A program made the position numbers and the translations under genes. The notes below the pieces were generated by a model. That model searched no databases and was not told the DNA's origin. It saw nothing but the letters and a program-made list of their open reading frames with translations. This document shows, in pieces, positions 9,594 through 18,309 of a stretch of DNA of 64,000 nucleotides (position 1 is the first letter of the stretch; every line of letters begins with the position of its first letter). Source of the stretch: Bacteroidota bacterium (GTDB lineage: Bacteria > Bacteroidota > Ignavibacteria > Ignavibacteriales > Ignavibacteriaceae); assembly GCA_021813585.1 (NCBI GenBank), contig JAKAJV010000102.1:62001-126000 (forward strand), in the 5' to 3' direction.

Positions 9594-10108
9594 ACCTGCA
9601 AGCCTTTATGTTAAAAATTTTGAATGAGAAAATAACTAAGTTGATTTGTATTTGCAATCATAATTTCACATAATTTGTATCCACCGCATAGGGTGAACAA
9701 TCTCATCTAATATAATCGAATATTTTAGTTTAAATTTTAGCCGGAGATAAATAACTATGCACTTTATTACATACAACCACCGCAGGATGAATTCTATACA
9801 GCATTTCATTCTATCAGCACGTTAAAAACATATTCGTCTTTTAACGCTTTTACTAGCTTAACTCATGTTACGCAGGAATACATTTTGATGTCCGCATTGT
9901 CATTCCCACGAAAGTGGGAATCCATTTTTTATCATATCTTCGCATCTTGGATACCCGCTTTCGCGGGTATGACACTCAAGCTTTATAATTTTGCGTAACA
10001 TGAGTAACTTAACCTTAATTTCCAAACCGCCTTCTCCTTGCTTGGATAATTTATATTATTTAATTTTGGTCAGTTATTTTTATATTAATCATTATTGGGG
10101 ATCCAATC
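9594..10108. other. Intergenic gap with one MITE-like element
   Basis: Between the divergent kinase and isocitrate dehydrogenase genes. The left part (9594-9860) is AT-rich and I see no gene or clear RNA in it. 9861-10005 is the MITE-like element described separately. 10006-10108 must hold the promoter of the dehydrogenase; GGGGA lies about 7 bases before its ATG. Confidence 0.6.
9861..10005. mobile_element. 145-bp MITE-like element with 14-bp perfect terminal inverted repeats
   Basis: The ends ACTCATGTTACGCA (9861-9874) and TGCGTAACATGAGT (9992-10005) are perfect inverted repeats. Inside are two strong hairpins: CATTCCCACgaaaGTGGGAAT (9901-9921), and ATACCCGCtttcGCGGGTAT (9951-9970). There is no coding capacity. 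TTA/TAA flanks are compatible with a short target duplication but do not prove it. The structure fits a non-autonomous miniature inverted-repeat element; the mobilising transposase is not in the window. Confidence 0.75.
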
Positions 10109-11341: not shown

Positions 11342-11875
11342 ATGCGCGATAAAGTTTTAGATATATGGCCGGAAATTAACTGGATAAAAAACGTAGAGCT
11401 TAAAGAGAAGGTGCTGAACTGCTGGATTTATGCGGTTGAGAACAGCGTTCTTTCTATTGATGACCTAAAAGTTATTCCCTTCTCGTTGCTGCTGAAGGAT
11501 TGTAAAATTTCATTTATGACTCACAAGAGAACCGCAGTGCATCTTTCGGTGGAAATGGCTAAGATAATGATGAAAAATTTCGGCGACGAGATTAAAATTG
11601 ATATGGATACGCTTATTGCAGGGGCAATTTTAATAGACGTAGGCAAGCTTCTTGAATATGAATTAAAAGACGGCAAGCTTACTACCAGTGCTGCCGGTAA
11701 TTTAGTTAGGCACCCCTTCAGCGGGATGGCAATTGCAGACCGCTTTAACCTGCCGGCCGAAGTACAGCATATTATCGCTACGCATTCAAAAGAGGGCGAC
11801 CTGGGAAAGCGCACAGTTGAATCCATCATTGTTCATCATGCGGACTTCGTTAGCTTTGATCCGTTTAAAGCGTAA
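11342..11875 (+). CDS. HD-domain protein with a degenerate metal dyad
   Basis: A 177-residue protein of the HD phosphohydrolase superfamily. Conserved histidines are visible: His68 (TAVHLS), His124 in RHPFSG, His148 in IATHSKEGD, and HHADFV (165-170). At the defining His-Asp doublet, however, the sequence reads A-I-L-I-D-V-G-K, so the metal-ligand His is Ile98 (codon ATA). Metal-dependent hydrolysis may therefore be lost or altered. The start is the ATG at 11342, with GAGGA seven bases upstream; an upstream TTG would place the start inside the terminator. It lies between isocitrate dehydrogenase and the first four-helix-bundle element. The role is unknown; nucleotide binding or sensing is plausible. 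Confidence 0.8.
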   Translation: MRDKVLDIWPEINWIKNVELKEKVLNCWIYAVENSVLSIDDLKVIPFSLLLKDCKISFMTHKRTAVHLSVEMAKIMMKNFGDEIKIDMDTLIAGAILIDVGKLLEYELKDGKLTTSAAGNLVRHPFSGMAIADRFNLPAEVQHIIATHSKEGDLGKRTVESIIVHHADFVSFDPFKA

Positions 11876-11888
11876 ACGGGAAGACGGG

Positions 11889-11919
11889 AAACGTGGAGAC
11901 GGAAGACGGGAAGACGAGA
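11889..11919. repeat. Left complementary arm of four-helix-bundle element 1
   Basis: A purine-rich segment built from GGAAGACG-like subrepeats. It is complementary at 26 of 31 positions to 12418-12448 on the far side of the four-helix-bundle gene. Transcribed RNA could therefore form a long imperfect stem enclosing the gene. This is direct sequence comparison by eye; folding energy was not computed. Confidence 0.7.
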
Positions 11920-12015
11920 AGATGCACAGATGAAAGATTTTGGTGAAAATTATAAAATTGGAATTGAGGGTTTAAACAAATATTAACCTAAAAATATATT
12001 TTAAAGGAGAAAAAA

Positions 12016-12375
12016 ATGTTAAACCTCAATCACAAAAGCTTAGATGTTTGGAAGAAGGGAATGGATATTGTAGTTGAAATATATAAACTAACAAGGCTAT
12101 TTCCCAAGGAGGAATTATTTATACTTACTTCTCAATTAAGAAGGGCAGCTGTATCAATTCCGTCTAATGTAGCAGAGGGCTTTGCACGAATCTCTGAGCC
12201 GGAAACTAAAAGATTTTTAGATATTGCTAGAGCCTCGTTAGTTGAGATTGATACTCAAATAGATGTTTCATTATCATTAAAATATTTAAGAGAAGACCAA
12301 ATAACAAATTTATCAGAAATTGCAAATCATGAATTTGCAATGCTGACGAACCTAATTAAAAAATATTCAAAGTGA
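12016..12375 (+). CDS. Four-helix-bundle protein, 23S intervening-sequence-protein family (copy 1)
   Basis: 119 residues with the hallmarks of the IVP / four-helix-bundle family (TIGR02436 type): an N-terminal L-D-V-W motif, F-P-K-E-E-L-F, then QLRRAAVSIPSNVAEGFAR and a C-terminal helical stretch. The family is found inside 23S rRNA intervening sequences and as stand-alone genes; its bAvd relatives assist diversity-generating retroelements by binding nucleic acid. The function here is unknown. AAGGAG is a strong ribosome site seven bases before the ATG, unlike the weak sites of neighbouring metabolic genes. It lies between the HD-domain and aconitase genes and is bracketed by complementary sequence, with a five-copy tandem array on its right. 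Confidence 0.92.
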   Translation: MLNLNHKSLDVWKKGMDIVVEIYKLTRLFPKEELFILTSQLRRAAVSIPSNVAEGFARISEPETKRFLDIARASLVEIDTQIDVSLSLKYLREDQITNLSEIANHEFAMLTNLIKKYSK

Positions 12376-12420
12376 GAATAGAAAAAAGAAATAAGAGCAA
12401 ATACATTTTTGAACCTCTCT

Positions 12421-12495
12421 CGTCTACACGTCTTACGTCTACACGTCTTACGTCTACACGTTTTTCGTCTACACGTTTTTCGTCTACACGTCTTA
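12421..12495. repeat. Five-copy 15-bp tandem array (right arm of element 1)
   Basis: Five consecutive 15-bp units of the form CGTCTACACGTCTTA, the third and fourth ending in TTTTT instead. The first two units and the three bases before them pair with the purine-rich left arm at 11889-11919. There are no spacers, so it is not CRISPR. It ends 31 bp before the aconitase start. Confidence 0.9.
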
Positions 12496-16051: not shown

Positions 16052-16318
16052 ATGCAGGCATTGATATACACCGAAGCGAGAAATAAACTAAATAAGATTA
16101 TCGATAAGGTAAACGAAAATAATGAGCCGTACCTGGTTGTTGGGAGTAAGGGAAGAAAAGATGCCGTTATTATTTCGAAAGAAGATTATGATAACATGGT
16201 TGAAAATTTATATATCCTGGGTAATCCGCGGTGGGTAAAAAGTATAAAAAAGGGATTAAAGGAGTTAGATGAGGAAAAAGGGAAAAGATTAAACTCATTT
16301 GAAGCCTTAGTAATCTGA
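16052..16318 (+). CDS. Orphan Phd/YefM-family antitoxin
   Basis: 88 residues with the Phd/YefM antitoxin fold: an N-terminal DNA-binding part (Y-T-E-A-R-N-K-L-N-K-I-I-D-K-V), then PYLVV, DAVIISKEDYDNMVENLYIL, and a variable C-terminal helical toxin-neutralising tail. GAGGT lies seven bases before the ATG. A RelE/YoeB- or Doc-like toxin would normally follow within a few bases; the next 120 bp have no such gene and then the citrate-lyase fusion begins. It therefore looks like an orphan antitoxin or a transcriptional regulator derived from one. It has its own near-consensus promoter within the cluster. Confidence 0.88.
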   Translation: MQALIYTEARNKLNKIIDKVNENNEPYLVVGSKGRKDAVIISKEDYDNMVENLYILGNPRWVKSIKKGLKELDEEKGKRLNSFEALVI

Positions 16319-17626: not shown

Positions 17627-17664
17627 TTATGAAATATTTATTTGATAAAAATAATGATATGAAT

Positions 17665-17685
17665 GCTGTCATTCGGTTGTCATTC
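17665..17685. repeat. Left complementary arm of four-helix-bundle element 2
   Basis: A 21-base segment containing GCTGTCATTC and GTTGTCATTC. It is the reverse complement, at 20 of 21 positions, of 18139-18159 in the tandem array on the other side of the four-helix-bundle gene. The one difference would be a G-U pair in RNA. The array offers four identical partner sites for it. Confidence 0.85.
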
Positions 17686-17746
17686 TGTAGTTAATGAGAT
17701 GTAAAGATTAAAAATTATTTTGATAATTATAAAGTAGGAGGGGTGT

Positions 17747-18151
17747 ATGAAGCTTGAAGAACTAAACGTTTATCAGTTATCAATGTCGATAGCAGAAGAA
17801 ATTTGGGATATTGTAAAAAAGTGGGATTATTTTACAAAAGATACTGTCGGCAAGCAACTTGTTCGAGCGGCTGATTCGATTGCTGAAAATCTAAGTGAAG
17901 GCTTTGGAAGGTTTTTTTACAAGGAAGAAAGACAATTCTGTTATTATTCAAGAGGCTCTTTGTATGAAACGAAAACCTGGTTAACAAAAGCTTCAAATAG
18001 AGGACTTATTAATACAAAGGATTTTGAAAAATTTAAAAAAGAGATAAATAACATTGGAGTAAAATTAAATAATTACATTAAATCGATTGGAAAAAAGAAA
18101 CAATCTTGGGATAAAATACAACTGAATGACAGCGAAGCGAATGACAACTGA
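17747..18151 (+). CDS. Four-helix-bundle protein, 23S intervening-sequence-protein family (copy 2)
   Basis: 134 residues of the same IVP-like family as the copy near 12.0 kb but clearly diverged. Family features are L-N-V-Y-Q-L-S-M near the start, GKQLVRAADSIAENLSEGFG, then helical RGSLYETKTWLTKA. AGGAGG lies seven bases before the ATG. The coding region runs into the 26-bp tandem array: the last nine residues (LNDSEANDN) and the stop codon are written by repeat DNA, suggesting that the gene end and array were joined secondarily or travel together. It sits between the citrate-lyase fusion and CitF, and is bracketed by complementary sequence like copy 1. The function is unknown; RNA binding is an inference from the family. 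Confidence 0.92.
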   Translation: MKLEELNVYQLSMSIAEEIWDIVKKWDYFTKDTVGKQLVRAADSIAENLSEGFGRFFYKEERQFCYYSRGSLYETKTWLTKASNRGLINTKDFEKFKKEINNIGVKLNNYIKSIGKKKQSWDKIQLNDSEANDN

Positions 18152-18250
18152 ATGACAGCGAAGCGAATGACAACTGAATGACAGCGAAGCGAATGACAAC
18201 TGAATGACAGCGAAGCGAATGACAACTGAATGACAGCGAAGCGAATGACA
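18121..18250. repeat. Five-copy 26-bp tandem array (right arm of element 2)
   Basis: Five identical head-to-tail 26-bp units, starting at 18121, 18147, 18173, 18199 and 18225. Each contains ACTGAATGACAGCGAAGCG followed by AATGACA. There are no spacers, so it is not CRISPR. The first unit encodes the C-terminus and stop codon of the preceding gene. Unit boundaries are complementary to 17665-17685. Identity between copies implies recent expansion. Confidence 0.95.
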
Positions 18251-18309
18251 ATAGTAAATCAATCAAAACTAAATTATTTCAGAATAATAAACTTTTAAAT
18301 AATCAAACA

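Follow-up and report, generated by a model that had tools for sequence, protein, structure and literature searches.

What is a gene of the IVP family (PF05635), familiar from the intervening sequences (IVSs) of 23S rRNA, doing in the middle of a citrate lyase operon? The question is raised by a 64,000-nucleotide stretch of an Ignavibacteriaceae genome (positions 62,001 to 126,000 of contig JAKAJV010000102.1, assembly GCA_021813585.1; hereafter the window), in which such a gene lies between those for a CitD-CitE fusion and for CitF and is enclosed by complementary arms. A preliminary description of the locus proposed an IVS-like element living outside rRNA, which might be excised as RNA or move as DNA. 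Our analysis indicates that this focal element is likely to be one copy of a dispersed, mobile-type element composed of a period-7 array, a single IVP gene and the reverse complement of the array, and its interpretation as a relative of the 23S rRNA IVS residing outside rRNA is well supported.

The left arm of the focal element (17665-17685, GCTGTCATTCGGTTGTCATTC) is complementary at 20 of 21 positions to each of four registers on the right (18139-18159, 18165-18185, 18191-18211 and 18217-18237), the sole remaining position being a G-U pair when read as sense RNA; 18118-18133 provides a fifth register, which is shorter. The arm pair has an alignment score of 18.5, and the best of 5,000 dinucleotide shuffles reached 15.0. 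The right array (18118-18251) has a period of 26 nucleotides (nt) and contains 5.2 copies, 100% identical, of what is a higher-order unit of GAATGAC words; it also provides the stop codon and the nine C-terminal residues (LNDSEANDN) of the open reading frame (ORF) at 17747-18151. The protein belongs to PF05635 (99.9 bits for a cut-off of 33.8, with positions 1-105 of the 106 in the profile covered) and is related to Xcc0516, whose structure has been solved (2gsc; Table 1). The preliminary description thus proved correct as to the arm and its four partners, the perfect array, the C-terminus supplied by the array, the protein family and the location between citDE and citF. The 21-mer pair does not recur elsewhere in the genome, the only other match being one with three mismatches on another contig, and 12 of the 13 occurrences of GAATGACA in the window (1.6 expected) fall within the element. 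No Rfam match was found in the window, and the element, whose neighbours are citDE and citF, is not located in an rRNA helix.

The same layout recurs throughout the family. The source genome has six PF05635 genes, every one of which is bracketed by short tandem words on the left and their reverse complement on the right, with words that differ from element to element (GACGGGAAG, CAGAGGTCAGAAGTC, GTCATTC, AAGTTTAAGTTC, GATGCTGGATGCTC and AATTAAAAATTC). Among 134 IVP loci taken from the genus, the phylum and 74 named GTDB records, complementary arms with a score of at least 13 were present at 77.6%, compared to 2.1% of 515 control positions elsewhere in these loci and 2.6% of cross-locus pairs. 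When the score was raised to 15, the corresponding figures were 61%, 0% and 0.8%. Adding further copies from the genus and ten plasmid copies brought the set to 176 loci, with arms at 73% (score 13; Fisher p 4e-84) and 60% (score 15). Arms flank all ten plasmid-borne copies (eight cyanobacterial, one from Gemmatirosa and one from Riemerella); phage records yielded no match. By contrast, a control family of small genes from the same genomes, Phd/YefM, had arms at 1/30 loci at score 13 and 0/30 at score 15. A Phd/YefM-type antitoxin gene also occurs in the operon of the focal element (16052-16318). It was local arm alignment that separated IVP loci from controls; the duplex energy of whole 300-nt flanks did not. 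The arm-positive records span at least a dozen phyla, going by record titles and with the usual caution about the binning of metagenome-assembled genomes (MAGs). One MAG labelled Limnohabitans (L101) has the insertion site and neighbouring genes of a Flavobacterium locus; it is likely misbinned and was not counted as a case of horizontal transfer.

The arms have a characteristic anatomy. Their identity at a shift of seven is 0.45-0.47, compared to about 0.28 elsewhere, and the match between arms in their specific register is 0.79 (somewhat inflated by selection of the best register) versus 0.52 one heptamer off and 0.28 off period. The 5' arm is C-poor and has a positive GC skew in 85 of 91 loci (p 5e-23), so that the G-rich strand is directed inward on both sides. 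While words vary between elements, they are common to both arms of one element and to solo arrays elsewhere in the genome; heptamer-armed hairpins lacking a gene also exist, some of which reuse the words of a nearby IVP element. An 829-kb sample from two genomes contained 18 IVP genes and 35 arrays; 15 of the arrays lay no more than 400 nt from such a gene, a roughly thirtyfold density, and shuffled DNA contained no arrays. Heptamer repeats are already known from Beggiatoaceae (TAACTGA), cyanobacteria (STRR) and Xanthomonas (GGGAATC, in convergent pairs), and heptamers are over-represented in many bacteria (PMC4679880, PMC4692102). These are likewise intergenic arrays, and the Xanthomonas pairs apparently have the same polarity as IVP arms (PMC4692102), but those described here are tied to IVP genes as paired arms; the two papers make no mention of IVP genes under the names searched. 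Their abundance could suggest a neutral origin, in which slippage enlarges heptamer arrays in loose intergenic DNA, template switching inverts them and IVP genes are bystanders. The specificity of the arms for IVP genes, the array density around these genes and the rarity of arms at control positions and Phd/YefM genes make this very unlikely.

Are the elements mobile? A comparison of the citDE-citF gap among relatives, suggested in the preliminary description, showed that the element, which in the source genome lies in the 683 nt separating the citE stop from the citF start, is missing from seven genomes of the same genus with the same gene pair. In six of these the genes abut or nearly so. 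The seventh (G010) has a gap of about 70 nt that is devoid of genes and contains a small imperfect hairpin, and in an eighth genome citF is preceded by a different gene. The site upstream of aconitase gives a similar picture, with IVP genes carrying three different word sets in three genomes, none in at least six, and a heptamer-like array without a gene in one (G005). The closest protein relative of the focal IVP, 70% identical, is found in another genome (L022 in G007) in other surroundings, with GTCATT arms, and in flavobacteria 88% identical IVP proteins occur at different junctions with the same TGTATAATGTA words. At one orthologous site in three species the words persist and the array lengths change on either side. 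IVP elements are usually found between the genes of an operon and sometimes within a gene, and their number within one genus ranges from 1 to 25 per genome at widely varying sites. Occupied and empty alleles of one site, the general mark of a mobile element, thus exist at the citE-citF junction, at the aconitase junction and in a methyltransferase gene (see below), and the DNA-level mobility considered in the preliminary description is supported at the level of distribution.

The solo arrays and hairpins could also be accounted for by a domesticated system resembling RAYT and repetitive extragenic palindromic (REP) sequences, where IVP would be a host protein acting on heptamer arrays across the genome and its gene would merely sit beside its own substrate. 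The words shared between solo arrays and the IVP elements of the same genome fit with this idea, as does strong purifying selection: the closest IVP pairs have a nonsynonymous divergence (dN) of 0.04-0.12 for a synonymous divergence (dS) of about 0.9 or more, i.e. a dN/dS of about 0.1 or less, which argues that the IVP protein matters and also counts in favour of a mobile-type element. We nonetheless consider a domesticated system rather doubtful, given the variation in copy number and sites within one genus and the existence of empty sites; to our knowledge, no nuclease motif is known for the IVP family either. As in RAYT/REP pairs, or those of insertion sequences and miniature inverted-repeat transposable elements, a single gene has flanking inverted repeats and gene-less repeat copies elsewhere, but IVP elements have a lone IVP ORF and arm words that change with each copy, in place of the transposase gene and conserved terminal inverted repeats that define an insertion sequence. 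A pair of near-identical IVP copies from two genomes (L034/L198) was excluded as uninformative because of a run of Ns and the sharing of nearly whole contigs. In the first of these loci, the left arm and first part of the IVP gene occur in tandem copies beside an assembly gap (851-1560).

Some elements lie inside genes. At five loci the IVP gene is nested in a longer host ORF that is open in one and the same alternative frame. In a Treponema MAG, the element is in the editing domain of leuS, with the LeuRS frame open across it and the contig ending just after (L063, 830-2392). In three genomes from different lineages, a DNA methyltransferase gene is occupied at a single site by an IVP element, in the loop between GEPDI and the next conserved strand; there are four occupied alleles (L261, L276, L280 and L015) versus at least 13 uninterrupted ones, two of which are 84-85% identical to an occupied allele in the part compared. 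A further element is located within an MmeI/Eco57I-like restriction-modification gene. Rickettsia palindromic elements are also palindromic DNA inserted in frame in protein genes; in contrast to these, the in-gene IVP elements carry an overlapping gene in another frame. On two cyanobacterial plasmids (L254 and L255), elements with arms lie exactly between cas6 and cas4. IVP genes have previously been reported alongside cas4 and cas6 in cas loci (PMC3936711), and in view of the plasmid copies these are probably inserted elements as well.

The window contains a second IVP element (11874-12495) with the layout of the focal one and other arm words, whose gene was overlooked in the preliminary description (Table 1). 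A strict scan of the window alone for periods of 5 to 11 found nothing, because the arms in it repeat at intervals of 26 and 15 nt. The window also contains a longer imperfect hairpin of a different kind (GTCATTCCCACGAAAGTGGGAA...; 9860-10005), which lies upstream of an isocitrate dehydrogenase-like gene and includes one GAATGACA word.

Table 1. Components of the two IVP elements, in window coordinates.
Feature	Position	Strand	Remarks
Left arm, GTCATTC words	17665..17685	+	95% complementary to four right-array registers; 0/5,000 shuffles reach score
IVP / four-helix-bundle gene, 134 aa	17747..18151	+	PF05635 E 1.2e-28; TIGR02436 E 4.8e-28; PDB 2gsc E 2.9e-6
Right array, 26-nt unit x 5.2, GAATGAC words; start encodes protein C-terminus	18118..18251	+	
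Segment from citDE stop to citF start, holding the element	17627..18309	+	Element absent here in seven same-genus genomes
Left array of second IVP element, same operon	11874..11919	+	46 nt, 80% complementary to 12418-12463
Second IVP gene, 119 aa, between HD-domain gene and aconitase gene	12016..12375	+	PF05635 E 2.5e-35
Right array of second element, CGTCTACACGTCTTA x5	12418..12495	+	

The protein encoded at 12016-12375 has a weak, sub-cut-off match to NF033474, the model for Avd, which the focal IVP protein does not match. Avd, which acts with the reverse transcriptase (RT) of diversity-generating retroelements, has a homologous four-helix-bundle fold and resembles PF05635 (PMC10053308), and IVP elements could by analogy be non-autonomous retroelements moved in trans by an RT. 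This appears highly improbable, and RT-driven movement can be rejected as a requirement, since no RVT_1 match is present in five nearly complete genomes despite their 11-14 IVP copies. Unlike Avd, the focal IVP has no adjacent RT: the only RT match in the source genome is on a different contig (C122) from the window (C142).

In 23S rRNA, the IVS has an IVP/S23 ORF (Leptospira, Coxiella) and complementary ends able to form a stem around it; in Coxiella, where the terminal stem measures 28 bp and is cleaved by RNase III, the IVS is patchily distributed and was acquired horizontally (PMC4990558). Could the elements described here behave similarly, with arms that pair in the operon transcript and a stem that RNase III cuts, so that the IVP message is released and the polycistronic mRNA divided? 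Where both neighbours point alike, the IVP gene has their direction in 123 cases and is opposed in 7. The stem envisaged in the preliminary description is predicted, the focal arms pairing in both minimum free energy and centroid folds, although the z-score of the whole element is only -1.4; the arms of the second element also pair (z -6.3), and thus just one of the two folds much better than shuffled sequence. Were the arms constrained chiefly by pairing of the sense RNA, their mismatches should include more G-U than A-C; the reverse was observed (G-U 91, A-C 134), in a test that is not entirely clean as heptamers vary within arrays. Furthermore, the copies in leuS and the methyltransferase gene keep the host frame open, which would be useless if cleavage there destroyed the host message. 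Excision by an RNase III-type mechanism is thus not supported, with the wobble test and the in-gene copies arguing against it as a general rule, and we view an element of this type as unlikely. What has held of the earlier proposal is an IVS-like element outside rRNA, given the recurrence of the layout across the family, the seven empty sites and the lack of rRNA in the window. The present elements differ from the 23S IVS in lying between or inside protein genes and in having period-7 arms with element-specific words and solo relatives, their excision being only putative. No rRNA was found among contig-edge IVP loci, leaving no 23S copies for direct comparison.

Several points weigh against a mobile-type element. 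No transposition event, target-site duplication or excised form was seen, and the junctions of relatives are too diverged to define duplications. The empty sites could include losses, and an unselected, slippage-prone repeat could mimic mobility through local expansion. About a quarter of IVP loci have no arms above threshold, some of which may be decayed copies, and the genomes sampled are mostly MAGs. Lastly, arm words track protein similarity weakly (r 0.09, 5/500 permutations), favouring so little a fixing of the words by protein lineage that we did not retain this idea.

On balance we favour a DNA-level, mobile-type element, which would spread by insertion into gene junctions or tolerant loops. 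The sense orientation of IVP genes suggests, as the simplest reading, expression by read-through transcription from the host operon, in a transcript that can fold into a long stem around the gene. The arms may pair or be recognised in single-stranded form. Their binding partner would be the IVP protein, which may bind them as a hairpin or as single-stranded DNA or RNA and would promote the movement or persistence of the element. Complementarity of the arms could be maintained, while the words turn over, by pairing or copying from arm to arm.

We found no previous description of a link between IVP genes and paired arrays in the full-text literature searched, which mostly excludes subscription papers. 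The finding gives PF05635, a large family of unassigned function, a non-coding signature shared by its members, and it links three loose observations, namely the intervening sequences of 23S rRNA, the heptamer repeats of cyanobacteria and other bacteria, and the IVP genes of cas loci. It also reveals that a gene can lie nested, in frame, within essential genes or restriction-modification genes. More tentatively, IVP elements might constitute a separate, minimal class of mobile element lacking a transposase, an RT and any known nuclease motif. A four-helix-bundle protein, paired element-specific heptamer arrays and host factors would then suffice for spread into operons and even genes, and the scattered heptamer repeats of many bacteria would be the gene-less relics of such elements.
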